From: a virus
Length of the DNA: 43,382 nucleotides
Virus record (IMG/VR): IMGVR_UViG_3300046514_000317
Location: 1-43,382 of that record
Strand: one strand, 5' to 3'
Part shown: positions 1,921 to 43,382 of the stretch, piece after piece
How the letters are laid out: each line of letters opens with the position of its first letter
Numbering within the stretch: the first letter of the stretch is position 1
Program-made: the position numbers and the translations under genes
The notes under the pieces: model-generated
The model's database searches: none
What the model was told of the DNA's origin: nothing
The model's input: the letters and a program-made list of their open reading frames with translations, nothing else

Positions 1921-4077
1921 TCACTGCACCGTTGCGGGCGCCGCGGACGCGTCTGGGGCCGGCGGCGCCATGCGGGCGGCCAGATCCCCCTGCACGTCGG
2001 CGTGGCCCTCCAGCACCGGCTGCAGGCGCGTGCCCAGCATGTCCTGCACCATATTCCGCACAATCACCTGCAGGCTGTGCGGATCGATCGTCCCCACCGC
2101 GGCCAGGCGCCTGGTTTCGGCGTCGTAGTCTTTGATCTTCAGCTCGTCGTCCTTGTCCTTGGCCTGTGCCTGCAGCTGGGCGACTTGTTGCTTGAGCTGT
2201 GCCACTTCCTGATCGGCCTGGCCGAGCAACTGCTGGGCGTGCTGGGTAACGGCCTGCACCTGCGGATCTGGCCCGGCCCGGTATTGCGGCGGCAGCCCCC
2301 GCTTCAGCCGATCGGCCAGCTCATCGGCGCCGGGGAAGTCCGAATTGGCCGCCCAGTAATCCCCCACGATCTGAAACGCCGCCGGGTTCTGCTGCATGAT
2401 CTCACTGAATGCATTGGCCGCCTCTTGCCGCTGCGTGCCGTACGCCGGCCCCACATCAGCCTCGACGTCGTATTCCCCGATCAGCGGGTTGAAAATGATG
2501 GCAGGGTCGGGCCGGTTCGGATCTTCCTGCGCGGCATCGGCCTGACCTGGCGTGACCGGCGCCGCGCCACCGCCGGGTTGTGCCTGCACCTGCTGGTGTG
2601 CCTCGGGGGCGTCAGGCGCTACCAGCACGCGGCCCTCGCTGCCGTCCTCGGCCAGCGTCAGCACCACACGGTGGGTGTCGTATACTTTAGGGATGAGATC
2701 CAACAGGATACGACCGATCTGCCTAATCCCTTTGGCTTGATTGTCGATGTAGTGATACGTCGCAGTATCGCCCTGCCGTTGCCGCTGCTGTATTGCGACG
2801 CCGCTGCGCTCGTTGGACGGCATGCCCATCTCGGCCTGATACTGGCCGGTGACCGACATCAGATCCTGCCGCGCGATGGTCATGCCCTGGATGTAAGCCT
2901 GCGCCATCTGCGGCGGCTGCTCACGCTCGGGCCGCTGGATCGGGTTGCCCTGCTCATCGAGCGGATTATAAAGCAGCACCGACCAGTTCTTGGTATTGGC
3001 GGTGGCCCACTGTTCCTCGCGTCCCTCGATCGCATCGGCACGCGCCACGTAGGGTGACTTCGTCTGCAGTGCCACTTGCTCGACGGCCGCACTGGCCCAG
3101 TAATTATAAATCCTTTGCGCATCTATCTGCGCCCGCGTGTGGCCCTTGCGATCCATCTCGCCGGCCACCACGGTTTCCTCACCGAGCCACGGCACGATCG
3201 GGATGTATTTGCCCAACCACTCTTCGCGATCGACGATCTTGTCGCCGGCAAACTTGAACCACTCGACAGTGCGTTCCTGCACTTCGCGTGATTTGGTGAT
3301 CAGCCCCTTGACCTGATCGCGCAACTCGCTTGGGATCTCATCATCGCGCACCACGGTGCCGTCGCGCAGGCGGTGGATGGTGCTGCTGGTGATGACCACG
3401 CGCCAGTATTCGGCAATGCGCACATGATCCCGGTCGTTCCAGCCATCGGTATGATCGAGCGCCGCTGGAGCTGCCTGGTCCTCTTTGCCGTATTCGTCTT
3501 CATAGCGCGACCGCTCGATGTCCTCGAACACGAAGGCAAACATCGCGTCCGATTTGTCATACAGCTCGCAGTCCGGGTCCATGTAGATCGTGCGGGGATC
3601 TTTCACCCGCTTAATGAACAGCTCGAGGTCAAACGACTGATCGTTGACATAGCCGGTGTCGACTCGACAGTAGCCGATGCCGCTTTCGACCTGGTGGTAT
3701 GTCGCGGTGGCGTAGGCATCGACGGCTTTGGATTGATACTCGATGCGCCGGATGATGCCCGAGAACACCTGCGCCGCTTCATACGACGCACGCCCACCGG
3801 TAGGCGTTACCTTGATCTGCGCCTTATGCTGTCTCGCGTCATTGATCACCTGCAGATTATGCTGCCGCACCTGGTTGTAGGTGAGGCATGGGCGGGCGCC
3901 GCGCTCGGTGCGCACGTTGGTGTCCCACTGCCACGCGTTGAGCGGATCGCCGTTGGCAAATTTGGTGTCGAACAACGCACGGTCGCGCCACGCGCTTTCC
4001 CACGTCTCGCACCGCTCGAAGCGCTCCTTGCCCTCGCGCAGGATCTCAGCGTCGCCGGATTGTGGGCGTCGGGCCAT
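1921..4077 (-). CDS. Portal protein, P22-like
   Basis: This 718-aa protein would form the dodecameric ring at the packaging vertex through which DNA enters and leaves the capsid. It has the P22-type portal layout: an N-terminal region with NQVRQHNLQVINDARQHKAQ (about residue 70-90), then a region of tyrosine- and aspartate-rich segments (YMDPDCELYDKSDAMFAFV). The C-terminal third is a long Gln-rich coiled coil (about 620-690), corresponding to the barrel of P22-like portals. Length matches P22 gp1 (about 725 aa). The ATG at 4077 overlaps the upstream TGA by one base (TGATG). Large terminase lies upstream and, after circularisation, scaffold and coat lie downstream, as expected. Confidence 0.9.
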   Translation of the reverse strand: MARRPQSGDAEILREGKERFERCETWESAWRDRALFDTKFANGDPLNAWQWDTNVRTERGARPCLTYNQVRQHNLQVINDARQHKAQIKVTPTGGRASYEAAQVFSGIIRRIEYQSKAVDAYATATYHQVESGIGYCRVDTGYVNDQSFDLELFIKRVKDPRTIYMDPDCELYDKSDAMFAFVFEDIERSRYEDEYGKEDQAAPAALDHTDGWNDRDHVRIAEYWRVVITSSTIHRLRDGTVVRDDEIPSELRDQVKGLITKSREVQERTVEWFKFAGDKIVDREEWLGKYIPIVPWLGEETVVAGEMDRKGHTRAQIDAQRIYNYWASAAVEQVALQTKSPYVARADAIEGREEQWATANTKNWSVLLYNPLDEQGNPIQRPEREQPPQMAQAYIQGMTIARQDLMSVTGQYQAEMGMPSNERSGVAIQQRQRQGDTATYHYIDNQAKGIRQIGRILLDLIPKVYDTHRVVLTLAEDGSEGRVLVAPDAPEAHQQVQAQPGGGAAPVTPGQADAAQEDPNRPDPAIIFNPLIGEYDVEADVGPAYGTQRQEAANAFSEIMQQNPAAFQIVGDYWAANSDFPGADELADRLKRGLPPQYRAGPDPQVQAVTQHAQQLLGQADQEVAQLKQQVAQLQAQAKDKDDELKIKDYDAETRRLAAVGTIDPHSLQVIVRNMVQDMLGTRLQPVLEGHADVQGDLAARMAPPAPDASAAPATVQ

Positions 4078-4367
4078 CAGGTTTCCTGCAGTTCAGACGG
4101 CAGTGGCGGCAGGGTGTGGGCGCCGGGTCGTAGCGGCTGCGGGCGTGGCATCTGCTGCGCTCTGGCCACCTGGCAATCCACGGGCGGCGCCTTAGGTAGT
4201 GGCGGCAGGTCCAGCGCCTGGAGTTGCTTTCCGACGCTGTATTTGCTGCGCCCCAGCATCCTGCCGATCAGCACAGGGCCGAGGCCATTGGCGCGGAGTT
4301 GCCGCAACAGCGTGCGCTCCTCATCCGTCCAGGGAACGCTCACCACGTGCTTCATGCTGGCTGGCAT
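4077..4367 (-). CDS. Small GcrA/SANT-like helix-turn-helix protein
   Basis: This 96-aa product starts at ATG 4367, behind a GGAG ribosome site; a longer in-frame ORF reaches 4538 but would run through a hairpin region. The segment PWTDEERTLLRQLRANGLGP, followed by IGRMLGRSKYSVGKQLQAL, resembles the N-terminal DNA-binding domain of the alphaproteobacterial regulator GcrA (W-T-[DE]-E-R...S...I...LG...V..K...L). The rest is Pro-rich. It is coupled to portal by TGATG. A regulatory role is inferred from the domain only; a small homeodomain-like packaging protein is an alternative. Confidence 0.65.
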   Translation of the reverse strand: MPASMKHVVSVPWTDEERTLLRQLRANGLGPVLIGRMLGRSKYSVGKQLQALDLPPLPKAPPVDCQVARAQQMPRPQPLRPGAHTLPPLPSELQET

Positions 4368-4422
4368 GGCGGCTCTCCGCTGTGCTAGGATCGGTCCCGC
4401 GATAAGTCCGAGAACCTCAAGC

Positions 4423-4458
4423 GCCCCGTATCTCCCCGTGAGTGCGGGGCTTTTCTTT
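4423..4458 (+). terminator. Rho-independent terminator reading rightward
   Basis: A perfect GCCCCG/CGGGGC stem (4423-4428 with 4445-4450) is followed by TTTTCTTTG (4451-4459). No rightward gene lies immediately upstream. It therefore either blocks antisense transcription or ends a short RNA starting near the TAGGAT at about 4386. The same tail, GGGGCTTTTCTTTG, ends the terminator at 12796-12854. Confidence 0.7.
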
Positions 4459-4473
4459 GGGCATGCGAGGTGG

Positions 4474-4692
4474 TCAATTGTGGCATGGCTCGAAATTGGC
4501 CGCGAAATACGCAGCCGCCACCAGCCACTGATCGCCATGGTCCTGCGGGTTACGCGCGATCATATCGCCCGCCTTCGGTGACCCCGCAGCACGATCCGGC
4601 TTGGAAATGCTGACGTCAGCGAGCACCTCGCCTGGCTCATAGGGGCGCAACTCGGCAATCTGGCTGCGGCGATAGGGTTTGAATTGTGGCAA
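4474..4692 (-). CDS. Conserved small phage protein (PKAGDMIARNP family)
   Basis: The 72-aa product carries the block SPKAGDMIARNPQDHGDQWL followed by VAAAYFAANFEP. I recognise this block from many tailed phage genomes, where it has no assigned function. In this window it is the leftmost gene of the accessory region, divergent from the rightward gene at 4754. The 61-base gap between them must hold at least one promoter. Confidence 0.8.
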   Translation of the reverse strand: MPQFKPYRRSQIAELRPYEPGEVLADVSISKPDRAAGSPKAGDMIARNPQDHGDQWLVAAAYFAANFEPCHN

Positions 4693-6755: not shown

Positions 6756-7024
6756 GACCGCGTCCCCTCAGTGCTGGTGAAGGTGACCAGCCGCACGCCG
6801 GTCACCGGGTGGTCGGTCTGCTGCGACAGCCGCATCACATCGTGCGCCAACGCCTCGAGCGCCTCCGCGGTGTCGCGCCGGCTGCTGAGCAGCGGCGTCA
6901 TCCCCAGCATCGGCATGCCGCTCGCCACAATGCCCTCGGTGCCGTCCCAATACGTCGCCACCCAGCAATGCAGCTCGGTGATGTGCTGGCCCGGCGTCGG
7001 CTCGGAGTGGACCAGGGCGGCCAC
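6752..7024 (-). CDS. Small hypothetical protein, 90 aa
   Basis: I place the start at GTG 7024, which overlaps the TAG of the small membrane ORF 7024-7128. A longer frame reaching 7210 would overlap the opposite-strand gene at 7186 and has a poor N-terminus. The product contains ELHCWVATYWDGTEGIVASG and a helical region EALEALAHDVMRLSQ. It has no recognised domain. It sits in the coupled run 7128 to 5647. Confidence 0.6.
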   Translation of the reverse strand: MAALVHSEPTPGQHITELHCWVATYWDGTEGIVASGMPMLGMTPLLSSRRDTAEALEALAHDVMRLSQQTDHPVTGVRLVTFTSTEGTRS

Positions 7025-7128
7025 TATCGCCCCCGGCTCCAACGCTCGGCCCAGGCGAGGATGCCGAATATGAGCGCCAGGCCGATCATAATGCCGAGCG
7101 GAAACACAACAGCCGTCCCCCGGATCAT
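7024..7128 (-). CDS. Tiny single-span membrane protein, 34 aa
   Basis: The ATG at 7128 follows GAGAGGG by 4 bases. The product starts MIRGTAVVFPLGIMIGLALI and continues FGILAWAERWSRGR: one transmembrane helix with a basic C-terminal tail, consistent with an inner-membrane peptide. Its TAG overlaps the GTG of the next gene, a typical coupling. It is one of several tiny membrane ORFs in this genome; role unknown. Confidence 0.6.
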   Translation of the reverse strand: MIRGTAVVFPLGIMIGLALIFGILAWAERWSRGR

Positions 7129-7185
7129 GCCACCCTCTCGCACAACCTACGCGCATGTTAGGCTGGATCGAGCAGGGGGGCCACC

Positions 7186-7473
7186 ATGACCACAACCACC
7201 GACTTCGCAACCTGGCTGTGCGTCCGGTGCGGCTACGCCATGGACGCCGCCGACGCCGCCGACGACAGCGATGCGGTGCCCGGCGAGGGTGATCTGTGTC
7301 TCTGCATGAACTGCGGCGCCCCCTACACGCTCGATGGCGCGGCGTGGCGGCCGGTGACCGCAGCCGAGATCGAGGCGCTGGAACCGGAAGAGCGACAGGC
7401 GATGGCCGCTGCGGAATACGCCCGGCGGCTCGCCAACCTGCCGGATCTGACCAAGGACGACGGCAAGGCGTGA
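7186..7473 (+). CDS. Small zinc-ribbon protein
   Basis: This 95-aa protein has two Cys pairs (LCVRCGYA near residue 11 and LCMNCGAPYTLDG near 40), the layout of a zinc ribbon, separated by an Asp/Ala-rich insert. A helical acidic C-terminal half follows, containing EIEALEPEERQAM. GC-rich purine sequence precedes the ATG. It is a lone rightward gene among leftward ones, so it probably has its own promoter in 7129-7185. The function is unknown. Confidence 0.7.
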   Translation: MTTTTDFATWLCVRCGYAMDAADAADDSDAVPGEGDLCLCMNCGAPYTLDGAAWRPVTAAEIEALEPEERQAMAAAEYARRLANLPDLTKDDGKA

Positions 7474-7483
7474 CCGCGTGGCC

Positions 7484-7663
7484 TCACGGGCACTTGCCCA
7501 GCCGCTGCTCGAGCAGCTCGCGCTGGTGCTGCAGCTCGGCGTTGATGTCGGCATACTCGCGGGTGAGCAGCGCCATGTCGTGCGAATTCTGCCAGGCCAC
7601 GGTGGTGAGGGCACCGATCAGCACCGGCACCAGCGCCAACACCACCTTGAGCCAGATCGTCAC
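7484..7663 (-). CDS. Small membrane-anchored coiled-coil protein
   Basis: I chose the GTG at 7663 because it overlaps the upstream stop (GTGA). The 59-aa product has an N-terminal hydrophobic helix (WLKVVLALVPVLIGALTTVA) followed by a charged helix containing REYADINAELQHQRELLEQR. This is the shape of an i-spanin, a holin accessory factor or a membrane anchor. It is the last gene of the PEP-CTERM operon (8528 to 7484). A spanin role is a guess; no overlapping outer-membrane lipoprotein partner with a lipobox is visible. Confidence 0.6.
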   Translation of the reverse strand: MTIWLKVVLALVPVLIGALTTVAWQNSHDMALLTREYADINAELQHQRELLEQRLGKCP

Positions 7664-7887
7664 GCACCGACAGTAGTGCGCTTGTCGTAGACCGACACCC
7701 CGCCATCGAGCGCCTGGATCACCTTGCCCAGACGCATGCTGGCATCCTCGAGATGACGATAGGCCAGCATGATGTTGGCCCGCGCCTCGCCGTCGGTGGT
7801 GCCGTGCTTCAGCGCCAGCACTTCCGCGGCGGTGTCTTTGATGGCGCCCCGCAGGCCGTTGATGGCCTCGATCTGCTTGTCGCTCAT
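7660..7887 (-). CDS. Small helical-hairpin protein, possibly Acb2/Tad1-like
   Basis: The ATG at 7887 shares its A with the TGA of the PEP-CTERM gene. The 75-aa product consists of two predicted helices: QIEAINGLRGAIKDTAAEV and RANIMLAYRHLEDASMRLGK, followed by a short tail with GGVSVYDK. The second helix block is common in small phage proteins. I associate it with the Acb2/Tad1 hairpin fold, whose members bind cyclic nucleotide signals of CBASS and Thoeris defence. That assignment is from memory and only moderately certain; the hairpin architecture itself is clear from the sequence. Confidence 0.7.
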   Translation of the reverse strand: MSDKQIEAINGLRGAIKDTAAEVLALKHGTTDGEARANIMLAYRHLEDASMRLGKVIQALDGGVSVYDKRTTVGA

Positions 7888-8528
7888 CACACCCGCCGCT
7901 GACGCACCAGCCCCAACCCCAGCAGCCCCAACCCCAGCACAGCCAATGATGCCGGCTCCGGCACCGCGGCAGGCGAGGCAGAGAACGTCCCCGACACGCT
8001 GCTGGTGAAGCTGCCAATACTAGTTCCAACAATGCTGAAACCTGGCGTGATGCCAGCAAACGCCAACCCCACCGCGCTCGGATTAAACAGATCGGTAATC
8101 ACGTCGCTGGTGAGCGTGAGGCTATCAGGCGGCGCACCAACCGCGAGCGCCCCACCCGCGCCACTGCCGAACGTCACGTCAGCGAAGGTGCCCGACAGGT
8201 AGTTGGTGCCCCCACCGCCAATGGCACTCGTGATGCTGAACGTCCCGGAGAACTTCTGCGCCGACCCGCCAAGGATCGGTTGGGCCGCGCCAACGGACGC
8301 CGCGTTGAGGTCGAAGAACGCCGCGGTCGGGCTGCCATTCTCGATCTGGGTGATGCTGATCGACGCATCGGTGGCGCTCAGCGTCGTCGCGTCCTGCGCG
8401 CCGTTCTCAGTCGCCGTGATCGGCGTGCCGGCAGTTTGGCCGAAGCTAAGCACCACGACCGCATAGGCCGGCGCGTGGAAGAACCAAGCCCCAGCCACAA
8501 TCGTGGCAATGCGCAGAGCGTGTTTCAT
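7887..8528 (-). CDS. PEP-CTERM sorting-signal surface protein
   Basis: The 213-aa product has a signal peptide (about residues 1-23, hydrophobic core IVAGAWFF, cleavage after APAYA). A Ser/Thr/Gly/Ala-rich beta-type body of about 165 residues follows. The C-terminus is the classic tripartite signal: VPEP at 189-192, a hydrophobic span to about 208, then RQRRV. In bacteria this signal is processed by exosortase (EpsH), and such proteins are usually linked to exopolysaccharide or the envelope. No exosortase is encoded here, so a host enzyme would be needed. AGGGG precedes the ATG. The gene heads a coupled set with 7660-7887 and 7484-7663. It is highly unusual cargo for a phage. Confidence 0.88.
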   Translation of the reverse strand: MKHALRIATIVAGAWFFHAPAYAVVVLSFGQTAGTPITATENGAQDATTLSATDASISITQIENGSPTAAFFDLNAASVGAAQPILGGSAQKFSGTFSITSAIGGGGTNYLSGTFADVTFGSGAGGALAVGAPPDSLTLTSDVITDLFNPSAVGLAFAGITPGFSIVGTSIGSFTSSVSGTFSASPAAVPEPASLAVLGLGLLGLGLVRQRRV

Positions 8529-8732
8529 GACGTGTAGCCCCTGTGGGTTTGTTGGTTGTGCCCGTCTCTCCGGGCTGTCGCGTCCATTCTCTCAGACGTT
8601 GCAGCCAGCGCGCGCCCGCTGGCAGGGCCTACTCGATGACTGGCGATAGCGCCCGCCCATTCCGGCCCTAACGGTCATACCCTCGGGCCACAACTGCCCT
8701 CGTCAGGGCGTCATCTTTCGCACGGCATCTCG
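8529..8732 (-). promoter_or_regulatory. Hairpin-rich leader of the PEP-CTERM gene
   Basis: No gene is seen in these 204 bases. They hold three perfect inverted repeats: GCCCT/AGGGC at 8696-8709, GCCAGC/GCTGGC at 8604-8623 and GCCCG/CGGGC at 8560-8575. None is followed by a T-run on the minus strand, so these are more likely leader RNA structures or a weak terminator than a standard terminator. The first could also end the transcript of 8733-9191. Confidence 0.45.
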
Positions 8733-9191
8733 CTACTTCGGCTGCGCGTGCGGCGGCAGCGGCATACCAGGGCGCAGGCTCGGATCGATCGCATGGTAGC
8801 TCCAGCCGTAGTTCGGCATGTAGACCAGGCACCAATACGTCCCGCCAGCAATGGGATGCTCCGGCGTACCAGGTACCTGGCCACCAGGCGGCGGTGCAAT
8901 CGGGTGCGTAGGCGTCCCAGGCGCGCTGCCAGAGCCCGGTGGTAGTCCCTGATCAGGCTTGGGCGGCAGGTAGCCTCCTACAGGCGGCCAGATGGCGCCA
9001 GGCGGCGTCCCAGGCGGCGCGGGGACGATCGGGTGCGCCGGCACCGGAGGCGGCCACACGCCCAACGGAGGCGGCGGAATAGGCAGCGAGTTGTCAATGC
9101 CAGGTGGTGATCCAGGCAACTCATTGTCCGGGTAATTCAGCCCAACGCTATCCAGCGTCAAAGCCCCACCAGTCACCCGAAATGTCGGCAT
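8733..9191 (-). CDS. Proline-rich phage protein, 152 aa
   Basis: After a short N-terminus (TFRVTGGALTLDSVGLNYPD) the middle is a Pro/Gly-rich region with recurring P..P.HPI and PPG.P motifs. A conserved-looking C-terminal block contains GGTYWCLVYMPNYGWSYHAI. Such proteins occur near terminase/portal genes of podoviruses and may be virion-associated; this is inference. It is coupled to 9191-9439 by TAATG. Confidence 0.75.
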   Translation of the reverse strand: MPTFRVTGGALTLDSVGLNYPDNELPGSPPGIDNSLPIPPPPLGVWPPPVPAHPIVPAPPGTPPGAIWPPVGGYLPPKPDQGLPPGSGSAPGTPTHPIAPPPGGQVPGTPEHPIAGGTYWCLVYMPNYGWSYHAIDPSLRPGMPLPPHAQPK

Positions 9192-9809: not shown

Positions 9810-9974
9810 CTAGAACCTGCCGCTGAACAGCAGGAACAGCACCAGCACAATCACGATGAGGCCGAAGCCACCGAAGGCGCCCCCACCATAATAGCCCTGC
9901 GAGTGACCCCAATAACCGCCCCCAAGGCCACCGAACAGCAGCACGATGACGATGATCAGCAGCAGCGGGCTCAT
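9810..9974 (-). CDS. Small Gly-rich membrane protein, 54 aa (cassette gene 2)
   Basis: The ATG at 9974 overlaps the upstream stop (ATGA). The product has two hydrophobic helices (SPLLLIIVIVLLFGG and FGLIVIVLVLFLLF) joined by a Gly/Tyr-rich loop, YWGHSQGYYGGGAFGG. This layout resembles short DUF3309-type membrane proteins. It is strongly hydrophobic along its full length, so coding is likely. Confidence 0.65.
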   Translation of the reverse strand: MSPLLLIIVIVLLFGGLGGGYWGHSQGYYGGGAFGGFGLIVIVLVLFLLFSGRF

Positions 9975-10720: not shown

Positions 10721-12418
10721 TCAAATACTCATCCACCCGGTATCCGCCCCGTGGCCCTGATACATGGCGCGGGGGCCGGCACCAAACTGGTTGCGGATGA
10801 TGTTGGACCCCGTACTGGCCCCCTCTTCGCGCACGCCGAGGCACAGATACCGCATGGCATCCGATCCATGGCTCGCGTGGTCATGCACCGGGCTTGCTCG
10901 CCACGCCTGCGCCTGTTCATTCCACTCGCGTTTATAGTGTCTGAGCGCATGAATGCCGCGGGCGCACTTCGTGGCATCGAACCAGGCCTTGGGCAGGATC
11001 ATGCGGACGGCGTTGATGCCATCCGCCACACTGTGCGCCTTGATGACCCGTGTGGGCCTGATCCCCAGCCCATGCATCGTCTCGGTGCGGCTTTTCCCTG
11101 ATCCCAGCTCTTTGACTTTGGCGTCATGCGGCAGCAGATGCTTCTCGTAGACATACGGGCGGGATTGCAGCAGCTGCGCGTAATGATCTAATCCAGCACC
11201 GCTATCCTCGATGTAGTCAATAATGCGCCACTCGCCGCTTTTCGTCACTTGGGCGAACCAAATGGCCGTGCTGTCATGCACACCCAGATCCCACGCCGTC
11301 CAGACTTTCAGGCTTGGATCGTGCGGGACTGATGTGATCCTGCCATCCCGTAGTAATGTGTCCATCGCGCGGCCGTAGTATGATCCGCTATTCGGGCTTG
11401 CGAATGAGCATTCTAATTCCTGCGCGAATTCCTCTTCCGTCATCTCGGCGCGCAGCCGCTCGATCGCCTCGGGCGTCAGCGCATCGGTCTTGGTGTAGTC
11501 CAACAAGTATGCCGAATAGCCTGGCGTGGTGGTCGCTCGATTGTAGGCGGCCTCGAGCAGTCCGTTGCCCTTCGGGGTGCCGCTGCGCACTAGCGTGCCA
11601 TTGCGATCGGCCAACATAGGCTCAATAACGAGCGGGACCATACTGGGTGGCGTATCGTCGAATTCATCGATAATACATTCAATGGCCCCGCCACCGCGCC
11701 ACACGTCTTGATTATCCGCACCGCCGCACTGATACGTGCCGCCGTTTGGCAGTTTCACGCTCATTTCACTGCGCCTGACTGCTGCGCCCGGTATGGCGTC
11801 CGCGGCGCGCACCAAATCGTCCCACAGGCCCGTCCGCTGCCACTGCACGCCGAAGGGCAGGATGTGGACGACCCTGGGGTTGGGCCATTTGACTTCCGTG
11901 AGGCAGCGCTTGAGCCCGCGCCACATCAGGGCGGTGCTCTTGCCGGCCCGGCGGTGGACGACGGCGACAATTCGCTTCGCGGGGTCATCGATCAGCGGGA
12001 TCTGCCAGGGGCGAGGGGCGAAGGGGATCGATATCGTCTGGCGCGGAGGCCTTGGCGCCTCAGGCGCCTTCGGCGGGGCTATAGGGGGCGCTGGTGGCGT
12101 CTGAGGCTGTGCCGCCTGTTGGGGCGGGGCATTCTGGACGGCCTCTGTGGGGCTGTTAGCGGGCTGTGGTGGGGGCGTTTTGGGTCTAGCGGGCTGTGGG
12201 ACGCCCTTACGGACTGGCGATTTGGCTGGTTTGTACGATTTAGACCCCTTCGTGTACGATTTGGCCGATTTGGCGTTAGATCCGCTCACCGACGCGCTTT
12301 CCGACACGTCGTGTGGTGGTGTCGGAAGCTTGCCAGGCGCCAGGCCGGCTTTGAAGGCCGCCAGCTGGGCCTGGAACGCCGCCGATCGGCCGCCTTGGGG
12401 TTTGCCGCGTGGCTTCAT
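10721..12418 (-). CDS. Terminase large subunit (packaging ATPase/nuclease)
   Basis: This is the motor that pumps DNA into the capsid and cuts concatemers. Motifs are visible in order: Walker A HRRAGKST (155-162), Walker B CIIDE (248-252), coupling motif SGTP (279-282), then the RNase H-like nuclease with AWDLGVHDS (about 376-383) and the late acidic block HASHGSDAMRYL. The first ~125 residues are low-complexity (Lys/Ser then Pro/Ala/Gln repeats), an unusual extension, since the ATPase domain normally starts near the N-terminus. No internal start has clear advantage. It is divergent from the small genes at 12409-12767. Confidence 0.95.
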   Translation of the reverse strand: MKPRGKPQGGRSAAFQAQLAAFKAGLAPGKLPTPPHDVSESASVSGSNAKSAKSYTKGSKSYKPAKSPVRKGVPQPARPKTPPPQPANSPTEAVQNAPPQQAAQPQTPPAPPIAPPKAPEAPRPPRQTISIPFAPRPWQIPLIDDPAKRIVAVVHRRAGKSTALMWRGLKRCLTEVKWPNPRVVHILPFGVQWQRTGLWDDLVRAADAIPGAAVRRSEMSVKLPNGGTYQCGGADNQDVWRGGGAIECIIDEFDDTPPSMVPLVIEPMLADRNGTLVRSGTPKGNGLLEAAYNRATTTPGYSAYLLDYTKTDALTPEAIERLRAEMTEEEFAQELECSFASPNSGSYYGRAMDTLLRDGRITSVPHDPSLKVWTAWDLGVHDSTAIWFAQVTKSGEWRIIDYIEDSGAGLDHYAQLLQSRPYVYEKHLLPHDAKVKELGSGKSRTETMHGLGIRPTRVIKAHSVADGINAVRMILPKAWFDATKCARGIHALRHYKREWNEQAQAWRASPVHDHASHGSDAMRYLCLGVREEGASTGSNIIRNQFGAGPRAMYQGHGADTGWMSI

Positions 12419-13936: not shown

Positions 13937-14521
13937 TTACGCGTCTCTTGGCACAAGCGATCTCACATCGATCGTCACTGTCCGCAGCTCGCCAAACACC
14001 AGCATGGCGACTGAGGCCTTCGTGCCCGCAACTGCGGTGATCACCGCCTCACAGCCCCTGAAAGCACCCGTCGCGAGGCTGCAAGGCACCCCAGGCGCCG
14101 CCCAGCTGTCGGTTTGGGGGTGAGTGGCGGCCAACGCCTCGACGGCCTGTAGCGCGCTCACAGCGGCCCTAGCGACGATGCTGGGATATTCCCCTGACAT
14201 GAGCAGGGCTCGGACGCCTGGCGTGTAGCGGATTGGCACCCACGGTCCCGTGATCGCGACGAATGCATAGCTCGTGAACAGCGGGCGTTGGACGCTGCGT
14301 GTCAGGCTGGGCGTCGTCCGATCGCGGACGGTGGCGTTGCGCATCGGCAGATATGTTTCGTATCCGGCACGCTTGAGATTATCGCACGCCCACTGCTCGG
14401 CCTGTGGGTGGCTGTGGATGACGCCCCAGTGCCCGGCGTCGGCTGCGGCTGCACTGCGTCCGCACCGGGGCTCACCGGCTGCGGTATCTACGCGCAGTGC
14501 TGCCTGGCTGTCCAGCGGCAC
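13937..14521 (-). CDS. NusG/RfaH-like transcription antitermination factor
   Basis: The NGN domain runs from GHWGVIHSHPQAEQWACDNL through YETYLPM, RPLFTSYAFVAITGPWVPIR and TPGVRALLMSGEYPSIV. A C-terminal KOW-like segment follows (about residue 150 on: FRGCEAVITAVAGTKASVAM, then VTIDVRSLVP). Members bind RNA polymerase and make it resistant to pausing and termination. I chose GTG 14521, 3 bases after the upstream stop; an ATG at 14605 would add a strongly Arg-rich N-terminus overlapping the upstream gene. Sitting just ahead of the packaging genes, it is well placed to act as the late-operon antiterminator. Confidence 0.8.
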   Translation of the reverse strand: MPLDSQAALRVDTAAGEPRCGRSAAAADAGHWGVIHSHPQAEQWACDNLKRAGYETYLPMRNATVRDRTTPSLTRSVQRPLFTSYAFVAITGPWVPIRYTPGVRALLMSGEYPSIVARAAVSALQAVEALAATHPQTDSWAAPGVPCSLATGAFRGCEAVITAVAGTKASVAMLVFGELRTVTIDVRSLVPRDA

Positions 14522-14523
14522 GG

Positions 14524-14763
14524 TCAATCCAGGCTCTCGATGACGTGCTTCTCGATCGCGTCGAGCACGCTGGCGGCGAGTGTGGCGCGGCTTTCGGGTG
14601 GGCACATGGTCAGCGCGTCGGCGAGGAGGAGGCCCAGCACATCGAATACCACGACGAGCGGCAAGTTGTTGAGCAGCTGACGGATGGCGTTTACGAGTGG
14701 CACGCTGATGGCGCCGCCCGGGTCTGCTGCATCGAGCGTGTCGTGGTGGAAGATCTCTGGCAT
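14524..14763 (-). CDS. Small hypothetical protein, 79 aa
   Basis: The start ATG 14763 shares a base with the upstream stop (TGATG). The product contains NAIRQLLNNLPLVVVFDVLG and LASVLDAIEKHVIESLD, mostly helical and acidic at the end. It resembles its upstream neighbour 14763-14996 in size and helical, acidic character, so the two might be distant paralogues. No family recognised. Confidence 0.65.
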   Translation of the reverse strand: MPEIFHHDTLDAADPGGAISVPLVNAIRQLLNNLPLVVVFDVLGLLLADALTMCPPESRATLAASVLDAIEKHVIESLD

Positions 14764-29429: not shown

Positions 29430-29897
29430 TCAGTCTCCTAGCCACTTCGCGTGATACATCTCGATGGGCGCGAACCCCAGCCGCTTGAATAGTGGGGATG
29501 CGTCATTGTGCAGCTTCGCGCCGACACACCAGCGTTGCACGCCGCGCCTGCGCAATTCCTTCTCCACCGCCTGAAACAGGATGATCCCGTTGCGACCACG
29601 CCGATGCTCGGGATGCACGAAGAAGATGTCCATTGTAGCGGTGAGGCATGTCGCGTAATGCAACCCCGGCGCGATGAAGCCCCAATAGTAACCGATGATA
29701 TGACCACCATCACGCAGCACCACGATGTGGAACTCGCCGCGCGCCTCACGTTCGTCGTAGACGTGCCATTGCGGGTCGAGCGGCACCTTGTCCTTATCGA
29801 GCGCCAACTCTTCCCAGTGCAACGGCAGCAGCGGCAGCATCTCATCGATGGTCGGGCGCCACGGCTCGGGACCAGCGGTAATCACGGCGCCAAGCAC
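29430..29897 (-). CDS. GNAT-family N-acetyltransferase
   Basis: The 155-aa product has a GNAT fold: strand HIVVLRDGGHIIGYYWGFI, motif A region MDIFFVHPEHRRGRNGIILF (acetyl-CoA loop HRRGRNG, about 98-104) and the final KLHNDASPLFKRLGFAPIE. It would transfer an acetyl group to an amine, but the substrate cannot be told. It is embedded among virion genes and overlaps the hydroxylase gene by 16 bases, so the two are probably made together. Confidence 0.85.
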   Translation of the reverse strand: MLGAVITAGPEPWRPTIDEMLPLLPLHWEELALDKDKVPLDPQWHVYDEREARGEFHIVVLRDGGHIIGYYWGFIAPGLHYATCLTATMDIFFVHPEHRRGRNGIILFQAVEKELRRRGVQRWCVGAKLHNDASPLFKRLGFAPIEMYHAKWLGD

Positions 29898-30442
29898 ACG
29901 TCCACGATCAGATGAATGCGGTCATCGGCACTGTTGTTTTCCACCGCATGCACTTCGCGCGGCGTGAATGTCCACACGCTACCGGTCAGCATCGCCACGG
30001 TCTCGTCGCCGTTGTGATAGAGCGAGCCGGGCAACCCGAGCAGCGCGACATGGAACCGTGCGCGCTCATCATTGCGGGCGGCATACTCACCAACGTTGTC
30101 CGCGTGCGGCGCGATGCGCGCGCCAGGCCGCAGCCGGGTGATCAGCAGCCGGTCGAGCTGGTAGGCAGCGACGCGGCGCATCAGGTCCAGCACGATGGTT
30201 TGCCACGGCAGCAGCCGCGCGGCTGGCAACCACACCGGCTTGTCATCCTCGATCACAGTATCGACGCTGCGAGCCGCGCTCGGCCCGGTGTAGCGCAGCA
30301 GGATGTCGTCCACCTCGCTGTGCGGCGTGCCAGGATAGGTCGTGCGGAATGTGTCGGCGTTCCACAGCTCGGGGTGACGCTGTAGCGCGAGCAGCATCGG
30401 CATTGTATCAACGCCGGCAGCGATCTGTTGGAAGTATCGCAT
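29882..30442 (-). CDS. Aspartyl/asparaginyl beta-hydroxylase-like 2-oxoglutarate oxygenase
   Basis: The 186-aa product has the iron-binding pattern HAD (His113, Asp115) and a distal His165 in TPREVHAVENN, with Arg175 in DDRIHLIVDV as likely 2-oxoglutarate ligand. The cupin strands around RARFHVALLGLPGSLYHNGD fit the aspartyl/asparaginyl beta-hydroxylase family. It may hydroxylate a phage structural protein or host target. The pairing with a GNAT gene in a tail/ejection cluster is known from other phages, without known substrate. Confidence 0.82.
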   Translation of the reverse strand: MRYFQQIAAGVDTMPMLLALQRHPELWNADTFRTTYPGTPHSEVDDILLRYTGPSAARSVDTVIEDDKPVWLPAARLLPWQTIVLDLMRRVAAYQLDRLLITRLRPGARIAPHADNVGEYAARNDERARFHVALLGLPGSLYHNGDETVAMLTGSVWTFTPREVHAVENNSADDRIHLIVDVCLAP

Positions 30443-39382: not shown

Positions 39383-40585
39383 TCAATTCGCGCAGAGGCG
39401 AACCGCGAGCTGCGGACGCAACGCCGCAGACCCCCAGAGCACATCTATTCGTATCGGCATCGTGTCGTCGCTGATGCTGTATTGCCGCACGGCGCGCATG
39501 CTGATGCCGTCCTTCACAACACGCGACGCCATATCGACCCCGCCCGGCATCACTAAATCCGCAGTGGCGAAGGTGAACGCGTCAGGATGGAACGCGAGGC
39601 TGAGCCCGGTTGCTGTGCTGGCGGTATTCATGAACGTGAGCGCCGCAGTCGCGTTGGCGGCGGTGACGACGTTCTGTGACGGGCTGCCGCTGACGCCATT
39701 GATGGCCGGCGCGATCGACATATTGCCCGCGCCGCCCGCATAGGCTGCGGTCAGCACGAACTGCTGCAGCACGCCGCTGCTGATCTTAGTTTCGGGATGG
39801 CACCGGAAGACGCCAGCGATCGTAAATACATCACCCGCATTGCCTGCGCCCGTGCCGGTGATCACGGCGAGTGTGCTGCCGGTATTCTGATTGGCGACAA
39901 CGGCGGTGGTGTAAGCGCCACTTTCCGCGCCACGGGTCTGCGTGGTCAAGTGGGTATTCTCCGCCCATTCGAAGCCAGCCGACAGGCCCATCACACCATC
40001 GGTGTATTGGCTGCGGATCTCCGTCGATGATTGGAACAACCCCTTGAGGCTGTCGACCATATCGACATTGTCCTGCGTGTTTATGCGCAGCAACCACTGC
40101 TTGGATTGTGGCGTCAGGTTGTCGAGCAGCTGCTTGCGGGCCTGCAGCACAGTCTTGAACGTCTGCGCAGCGCCACTCGTCCCAACCTGGTTCCACACTT
40201 GCGGCCACATGGCATTGACGAAATCGCTCTCGAGGCGGGCGGCCAACACAGCAATCGCCGGCTCAATGTAGCGAGCGCTGAAGTCATCGATGCTCAACGT
40301 CAGCTCAGCGCTGCTGAAGCTAAAGTCGACGTGATACTGGTTGGTGATCGGCAGGCTGACGAATGTCTCGACGGTGTTCTGCAGCGACAGCGCGGGGGTG
40401 GTACTGACGGTGTATTGCACCGGCAGGCGGATGCGCAGCGTGCTGCCGATCTTGGCGCCGCTATTGGCGAAGCTGTCATCGTATTGCCGGTTGACCGCGC
40501 CAATTATGTTGCACTTCTGGTGCAGTATAGCGAGCGCCTTTGCGGTGATCATATTGATGGTGAGGAGGGTATTGGTAGCGGGCAT
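39383..40585 (-). CDS. Major capsid (coat) protein, P22-like
   Basis: The 400-aa product starts MPATNTLLTINMITAKALAI and has LRIRLPVQYTVSTTPALSLQ, then VSLPITNQYHVDFSFSSAEL. The central region (QNTGSTLAVITGTGAGNAGD, VFTIAGVFRCHPET) corresponds to the inserted domain of P22-type coats. The C-terminus is SMRAVRQYSISDDTMPIRID. Length and motif order suit the HK97-fold gp5 family of P22-like phages. Scaffold is just upstream. Confidence 0.9.
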   Translation of the reverse strand: MPATNTLLTINMITAKALAILHQKCNIIGAVNRQYDDSFANSGAKIGSTLRIRLPVQYTVSTTPALSLQNTVETFVSLPITNQYHVDFSFSSAELTLSIDDFSARYIEPAIAVLAARLESDFVNAMWPQVWNQVGTSGAAQTFKTVLQARKQLLDNLTPQSKQWLLRINTQDNVDMVDSLKGLFQSSTEIRSQYTDGVMGLSAGFEWAENTHLTTQTRGAESGAYTTAVVANQNTGSTLAVITGTGAGNAGDVFTIAGVFRCHPETKISSGVLQQFVLTAAYAGGAGNMSIAPAINGVSGSPSQNVVTAANATAALTFMNTASTATGLSLAFHPDAFTFATADLVMPGGVDMASRVVKDGISMRAVRQYSISDDTMPIRIDVLWGSAALRPQLAVRLCAN

Positions 40586-42131: not shown

Positions 42132-42320
42132 ATGACGCGCACTATATCCGATTGGTCCTGGGACCAGACAGAAGCCGCCGACGCGTTCGTGGCGAACGCC
42201 GAGCGCTGGGGGACCGCCCCCGCGCTAGCCCGGGCCGTCGCGCGGATCGCTGAAGACACCGATGAGGCAGTCGCCATCCTCGAGTTCATTGGCGAGTATC
42301 GTCAGGCTGCAGGGCATTAG
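42132..42320 (+). CDS. Small acidic phage protein, 62 aa
   Basis: GAACGAGG precedes the ATG. The product MTRTISDWSWDQTEAADAFV continues with ARAVARIAEDTDEAVAILEF and IGEYRQAAGH. It is acidic and helical with no recognised family. It is the complete version of the partial ORF at 3-182 and converges on the 589-aa gene, whose 3' end it overlaps by 35 bases. It is a rightward gene in a leftward late region, with its own promoter. Confidence 0.7.
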   Translation: MTRTISDWSWDQTEAADAFVANAERWGTAPALARAVARIAEDTDEAVAILEFIGEYRQAAGH

Positions 42321-43382
42321 CCGCCGCGCCTGCGCCGACCGTCGCGGCGAGTGGCGACAGCAGGGGCTTCTTGCCGCGCACGAAGTCGAGCAGCGCCTTG
42401 GTGGGTGTGCCGCCACGCTCGGCGGCGGTCTTCTGCAGGCGGCCCTCGACGGCGCCCATAAAGGATGTCGGCAGCGAGCGCAGGCCCGTCACGCGCCCCC
42501 CGCCCACCCACAGCGCCGCCTGCAGTTGCGCGGGGCTCAGGCCCATCTCGCGCGCTAGATCCTGCTGGAAGCCCTCCAGGGCGGCGTAGTGGTTGGCCTC
42601 GGGCACGTCCTTCCAGGCCTGCGGTATTTCCAGCATCTGGTCGATCGTGAGGCGCCCCGATTTGACCTCATCGCGCCAATTGATCTTGTCGCCCTTCTGC
42701 ACGCCGATCGACGGGTAATTAACGTCGGCAGTCTGCGTCGTGTTGAGGAATTCCGGGTTTTTCGACAGCATGCCGATGAGCCGCAGATTGTGCTTGTCCA
42801 CCGTCACCGGCTCCTGATTGCCCGACAGGTTGGCATCGAATGACGCACGCTTCGGGCGCATCTCGGGATCGAGCGGGTTGCCGCCTGCAATATCGGAATA
42901 GGCCCCAAATTGGGTGTTTTGCATCTTGTGGCCGTAGGGCGAGATTAGATCATCAACCGACTGCACTGGGTCGCCCTGGCGTTCCTTGACGTTGTAGTAG
43001 CTCGCCGTCCGAATGTTCTGGGACACGTCGGAGCCGGCCGAAACAGCCCCCACCGTCCGCATGTATTTGCTGAATGTGGCGTTGCCCTCTTCCGGCCCCA
43101 GCTCGGTGACGAAGGCGAGGCGCAGCGGCTCGGCGTTATACCAGTAGGCGCCGCCGGTCTTCAGCCCGGCCTCGGCCACCGTCCGCAGTTTCCCGCGGAT
43201 GTCGGGATCGGTGGTGGCGTCGACAATGTGCGGCGGTAATCCCTTGCGGCGCCCAGCCTCGGGATCGATGCGCGACAGCGGTTCCTGCGGGACATCCGGC
43301 ACGCGCCAGGTATCGGACAGGTCGAACACCTGGCCAGGCCGCACTGGCGAGCCCGATTGGACCAGGCTCTCGGGCACCGGGC
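42286..43382 (-). CDS. Partial variant copy of the 589-aa protein
   Basis: The frame runs off the window end, so the N-terminal third is missing. It aligns along its length with 148-1271 and is identical over the last 127 bases. Differences are mostly conservative (for example KDPEFL/KNPEFL), apart from a shorter, different segment after NVKERQGDPVQ (this copy has SVDDLISPYGHKMQNTQFGA). The pattern fits a second strain's allele of one gene, not a functional paralogue. Confidence 0.8.
   Translation of the reverse strand, partial: PVPESLVQSGSPVRPGQVFDLSDTWRVPDVPQEPLSRIDPEAGRRKGLPPHIVDATTDPDIRGKLRTVAEAGLKTGGAYWYNAEPLRLAFVTELGPEEGNATFSKYMRTVGAVSAGSDVSQNIRTASYYNVKERQGDPVQSVDDLISPYGHKMQNTQFGAYSDIAGGNPLDPEMRPKRASFDANLSGNQEPVTVDKHNLRLIGMLSKNPEFLNTTQTADVNYPSIGVQKGDKINWRDEVKSGRLTIDQMLEIPQAWKDVPEANHYAALEGFQQDLAREMGLSPAQLQAALWVGGGRVTGLRSLPTSFMGAVEGRLQKTAAERGGTPTKALLDFVRGKKPLLSPLAATVGAGAAANALQPDDTRQ
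43256..43382. repeat. 127-bp exact copy of 1145-1271
   Basis: This is the window-end copy of the exact repeat. It supports joining the window end to position 1272 to close the genome at about 42,111 bp, leaving two alternative alleles of the 1-1144 region. Confidence 0.85.

Follow-up and report, generated by a model that had tools for sequence, protein, structure and literature searches.

The virus analysed here, IMG/VR record IMGVR_UViG_3300046514_000317 (positions 1 to 43,382; this whole stretch of 43,382 nucleotides is referred to below as the window), encodes a protein that ends in the PEP-CTERM signal of exosortase substrates, and so do many of its relatives. Our main reading, to which we assign a probability of roughly 0.6, is that this is an accessory gene (a moron) whose product is sorted by the exosortase of the host and alters the envelope or the extracellular polysaccharide (EPS) of the infected cell.

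The gene lies at the positions given in the original prediction, 7887–8528, on the minus strand, and codes for 213 amino acids; it was identified by profile matches and is kept in 34 other viral contigs. A leader, AACCCACAGGGGCTACACGTC-ATG (8526–8549, minus strand), is near-identical 5' of the gene in several relatives and likely provides the ribosome-binding site. A consensus scan for a promoter or terminator of the gene's own performed no better than chance. On inspection, the N-terminus, MKHALRIATIVAGAWFFHAPAYA, resembles a Sec signal peptide in having a basic stretch, a hydrophobic stretch and an A-x-A region (residues 1–23; 8460–8528, minus strand), and the two alanines of the A-x-A region, A21 and A23, are invariant across 15 aligned relatives. 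The protein ends in AAVPEPASLAVLGLGLLGLGLVRQRRV, and the PEP-CTERM signal, composed of a VPEP motif, a hydrophobic span and a basic tail, is encoded at 7893–7967 (minus strand). Both profiles by which the predicted signal was to be checked scored above their curated cut-offs (PF07589, 28.1 bits versus 20.7, E 2e-6; TIGR02595, 22 bits versus 16). The match spans residues 188–211 of 213, i.e., the extreme C-terminus, and is similarly placed in relatives. When the whole record was searched in six frames, this gene gave the sole PEP-CTERM match (E 8.5e-9), and the same search of 14 control genomes gave none.

Between the two signals lies the body of the protein (residues 24–186; 7971–8459, minus strand). 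An earlier structural model was poor (pLDDT 61.5). A model of the body built with bacterial and viral homologues was confident (pLDDT 85.5, pTM 0.83) and revealed a small all-beta barrel consisting almost entirely of strands, which bears out the predicted beta-type body. A Foldseek search with this fold returned nothing significant, and VIA-align returned only unrelated small barrels (Z of 8.6 or less), a common arrangement that does not indicate a function. Beyond the signal, the best NCBIfam likeness was to the flocculation protein PepA (NF033554; residues 73–212, E 1e-10), with a whole-protein score of 41.9 bits against a family cut-off of 80. PepA binds EPS to cells in flocs, and overexpression of pepA increases bound EPS and restores flocs (PMC9850573). 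The phage product could thus act on exopolysaccharide in the manner of bacterial floc PEP-CTERM proteins, changing the binding of EPS to the infected cell, so that cells would be kept in the aggregate or EPS would be loosened for phage release. We consider this explanation unlikely: the score falls short of PepA membership, no EPS-active domain was found in the protein, and, of several PEP-CTERM genes tried, pepA alone restored flocs (PMC9850573).

A search of IMG/VR with the gene, in line with the survey of viral databases that had been proposed, yielded 38 loci, comprising 34 close relatives, one relative at 40% identity and three matches to the C-terminus only. The full-length copies in the 34 related contigs are 72–92% identical to the window's, and the C-terminal signal is intact in each full-length copy of this main set; the contigs are only partly independent, since many of the source samples fall within one block of accession numbers. 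Median dN/dS (Nei–Gojobori) was 0.20 over the gene as a whole, 0.17 in both the body and the C-terminal signal, and 0.42 in the signal peptide. Purifying selection therefore acts on the gene, on its body no less than on its signal, and we regard it as nearly certain that it is a phage-borne gene under selection. The same values bear on the view that the product is a decoy, an excess of which would keep the host exosortase busy and deprive the surface proteins of the host of its action. The strong conservation of the signal would suit such a role, as would the many PEP-CTERM proteins that could serve as competitors in bacteria with homologues of the body (see below). A pure decoy, however, would need no selection on its body, and the body is constrained as strongly as the signal; the decoy is thus disfavoured and, in our judgement, very improbable.

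The window is the genome of a tailed phage that has P22-type features, with portal, coat, head closure, scaffold, DNA ejection and terminase genes; an ERF recombinase, a NusG-like protein and a DNA methylase are also encoded. The accessory region that holds the PEP-CTERM gene is bordered upstream by the gene of the terminase large subunit (10721–12418, minus strand; profile match) and downstream by that of the P22-type portal (1921–4077, minus strand; phrog_156). The NusG-like protein (13937–14605, minus strand; PF02357) is encoded at the start of the packaging region, is 35–53% identical in related phages, and is possibly an antiterminator of late genes. A gene for a GNAT acetyltransferase and an aspartyl/asparaginyl hydroxylase-like gene adjoin each other among the structural genes (29430–29897 and 29882–30442, minus strand), and a small hydrophobic DUF3309 protein is encoded in the region after the terminase (9810–9974, minus strand). 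The contig ends overlap as direct repeats (30–1271 versus 42167–43382, 88–89% identity), so that little of the genome, about 42 kb in size, is probably missing, odd as the imperfect overlap is; the record may represent a circle closed over two strain variants, or the repeat may be a diverged duplicate. The first 25 kb of the window had no megablast match among 50,697 phage records, and the portals, coats and terminases of isolate phages are all less than 60% identical to those of the window; among the matches listed, the closest isolate portals are those of Acetobacter phage phiAX1 (41%) and Pseudomonas phage PAE2 (45%).

The claim that this is a phage gene held up well, as it was found in many viral contigs and is common to three phage backbones with different terminases, portals and capsids. 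Almost all of the 34 related contigs have terminases, portals and capsids other than the window's and are dominated by two further backbone types, L009-like (portal phrog_1216) and L022-like (P22_portal, capsid phrog_334), both of which were confirmed as phage with PHROGs and Pfam. Such a difference in backbone, together with the occurrence of the body family in bacteria, would be seen if bacterial DNA had been spliced onto the phage contig, a danger pointed out in the original prediction itself. Two independent contigs, however, link the gene to a window-type backbone. In L016, the PEP-CTERM gene is 87%, the portal 80% and the major coat protein (39383–40585, minus strand, in the window) 95% identical to the window's, and a helix-turn-helix (HTH)-like gene found beside the portal gene in the window is present as well. 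In L197, a window-type terminase and a window-type portal accompany a relative of the PEP-CTERM protein at 51% identity. (L197 also contains two terminase-like copies, at 776–2218 and 7194–8579, which flank the PEP-CTERM gene.) Taken with the many relatives of the gene, these linkages exclude a chimera. In a tree, the copies of the window and of other viral contigs cluster apart from those of Acetobacteraceae, and no one source of the phage gene stands out. We therefore regard the artefact as refuted in substance.

When contigs spanning the slot of the gene were counted (after deduplication by hand), the PEP-CTERM gene was present in about 10 of 19 contigs of the L009 type and about 11 of 18 of the L022 type. 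The nearest terminase relative of the window, L171 (88%), has the neighbouring genes, including one for a single-span protein, and lacks the PEP-CTERM gene. The gene thus shows the patchy presence between otherwise similar phages that characterises morons and other accessory genes, and we conclude that it belongs to an accessory cassette passed from phage to phage. Closely related backbones do without it, so it cannot be a general requirement for infection; its absence from the closest backbone relative also counts against our proposal.

The order of neighbouring genes is kept across backbones. Upstream of the PEP-CTERM gene is a gene for a Pro-rich protein (8733–9191, minus strand; 24 of the 34 related contigs), and downstream are small overlapping and single-span genes, followed by the HTH-like gene that closes the accessory region (4077–4538, minus strand; 26 of the 34, with weak matches to regulators). 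In L009, an IS605 OrfB/TnpB-like gene (PF07282, PF01385) stands between the Pro-rich and PEP-CTERM genes (6873–8249, minus strand). The start of the first downstream gene overlaps the PEP-CTERM stop codon; it codes for a 76-aa helical protein (7660–7890, minus strand), a relative of which is present in 12 of the 34 related contigs; in about a third of the contigs, such relatives come immediately 3' of the PEP-CTERM gene. This protein matches PF24729, the Acb2/Tad1 hairpin domain, marginally (27.9 bits versus a cut-off of 27), and a PDB search with a profile of its relatives brought up neither an Acb2 nor a Tad1 chain. The domain is that of counter-defence sponges, for which the protein is only a candidate. 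A 59-aa protein with one hydrophobic span and a GTG start, recognised from its sequence, is encoded next (7484–7663, minus strand) and gave no family match; single-span proteins come after the PEP-CTERM gene in most relatives. The position of the gene among late-type genes and beside these proteins could mean that it is part of a lysis or late-envelope programme, in which its product and the neighbouring single-span proteins would act together as infection ends. This appears improbable to us, given that L171 has the single-span gene without the PEP-CTERM gene, and that the neighbours matched no holin, endolysin or spanin family in PHROGs or Pfam.

In agreement with the original prediction, no exosortase is encoded in the window, a search of the record with PF09721 having been empty. 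The same family was absent from all 50 viral records tested, and the idea of a phage-borne exosortase was rejected on this count. A scan of IMG/VR with four exosortases produced no confirmed match; only two peptide patterns were used, which makes this weak evidence. Among bacteria, the body has homologues in Sabulicella and Roseococcus (42–46% identity over the whole length) and in a Planctomycetales metagenome-assembled genome (42%). All three encode an exosortase, and they have 13–25 PEP-CTERM matches. Among 200 sampled genomes of the order Acetobacterales, strong full-length matches to the body were seen in only Sabulicella and Roseococcus. These two genomes (G001 and G002) have about ten dispersed copies each (e.g., L040, L042 and L044), and the family is absent from most of the genomes sampled in the order. 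The bacterial genes differ from the phage gene in being chromosomal, in their number of about ten per genome and in their signal, VPAPAG versus the phage VPEPAS. A 55% terminase match was found in a Sabulicella relative (G038), on a contig without any other matched window protein, and coat relatives in the 200 genomes are at most 40% identical. This terminase, the Acetobacterales coats and the isolate portals are together too little to name a host.

Judged by its sequence, the product is very likely an exosortase substrate, with the exosortase presumably supplied by the host. Bacteria that lose exosortase show a changed set of PEP-CTERM proteins outside the cell (PMC12188702). If the phage protein behaves as its family does, it would be made together with the products of the small genes overlapping the end of its gene, exported by Sec and anchored through its C-terminal span in the inner membrane; the host exosortase would then cut it near the PEP motif, and the cleaved product would reach the cell surface or the EPS. 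The least certain step is the last, in which the body would change the envelope of the infected cell to the benefit of the phage; that the envelope or the EPS is modified in some way we consider fairly probable. The most likely benefit would be that the adsorption of competing phages is hindered (superinfection exclusion); otherwise, EPS attachment and aggregation might be altered. Exclusion is our first guess for two reasons: a similar anchor carries different bodies in different phages, and surface lipoproteins of phages act in this way elsewhere, in another host group (PMC3952083). We tentatively put superinfection exclusion first, as one possible role, and rank effects on EPS and aggregation second. 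Processing by a host exosortase, altered receptors or aggregation and a restricted host range, all put forward in the original prediction, are at this stage predictions. Against exclusion, a gene of the late region may act too late in the lytic cycle for much gain.

The variety of bodies was apparent in other records. Of the 33 records with a related terminase, 12 had a PEP-CTERM match at E of 0.001 or less, 10 of them over the cut-off; inspection revealed several bodies unlike the window's, and some genomes with two copies. A motif scan detected the PEP-CTERM motif in at least 120 IMG/VR stretches. The proteins from these putatively viral contigs formed 44 BLAST clusters, many of which are fragments or singletons. 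In isolate phages, nothing matched body types A or C, and type B matched only at the level of chance. Other bodies on a similar signal, some in two copies, are as expected of a display platform. It is therefore conceivable, if doubtful, that the host exosortase serves uncultured podoviruses as a general platform for surface display, in which exchangeable bodies are joined to a PEP-CTERM anchor, the cassette moves between phage lineages of the same exosortase-positive hosts, and the envelope of the infected cell is remodelled against rival phages.

The window protein shares with known exosortase substrates (PF07589, TIGR02595; e.g., PepA, to which the similarity is partial and below the family cut-off) the layout of a start resembling a signal peptide, an unrelated-looking body and a VPEP motif with hydrophobic span and basic tail. 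It differs from them in being phage-borne, in not lying beside exosortase or EPS genes and in having a body of no named family. Ltp of Streptococcus thermophilus phage TP-J34 is the product of a phage gene and is exported and put on the surface by host machinery (PMC3952083), as is predicted for the window protein. Ltp has a lipid anchor, a Gram-positive host and a demonstrated function, whereas the window protein has an exosortase signal and is known from sequence; the comparison concerns a possible mode of action, not a family. An exosortase-type C-terminal domain has been reported in viral contigs before, in TIGR03118 proteins of Yellowstone viruses (n = 13; PMC11003980). That report devotes one sentence to them, among transferred genes, and does not analyse context, selection or mechanism. 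The literature searched, which included few subscription papers, contained no analysis of phage-encoded PEP-CTERM proteins beyond this mention, consistent with the earlier statement that no phage gene of this kind has been characterised. What is new is the carrier and the setting, a phage; the sorting signal was already known.

To our knowledge, little is understood of exosortase and its many PEP-CTERM substrates, only a few of which have been assigned a task. Where a phage maintains one of them by selection, the task of a sorted surface protein can be approached in a simple case, with a gene that can be taken away. The gene also hints at the hosts of the uncultured phages that carry it, which should be exosortase-positive. 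In this virus, as in many relatives, the encoded protein bears the address of the cell surface, and the surface of the infected cell is probably changed by way of the cell's own sorting enzyme. If the protein does act on adsorption or EPS, exosortase sorting would be added to the list of host pathways through which phages remodel the surface of cells, and the ecology of phages would be linked to the behaviour of flocs and biofilms.
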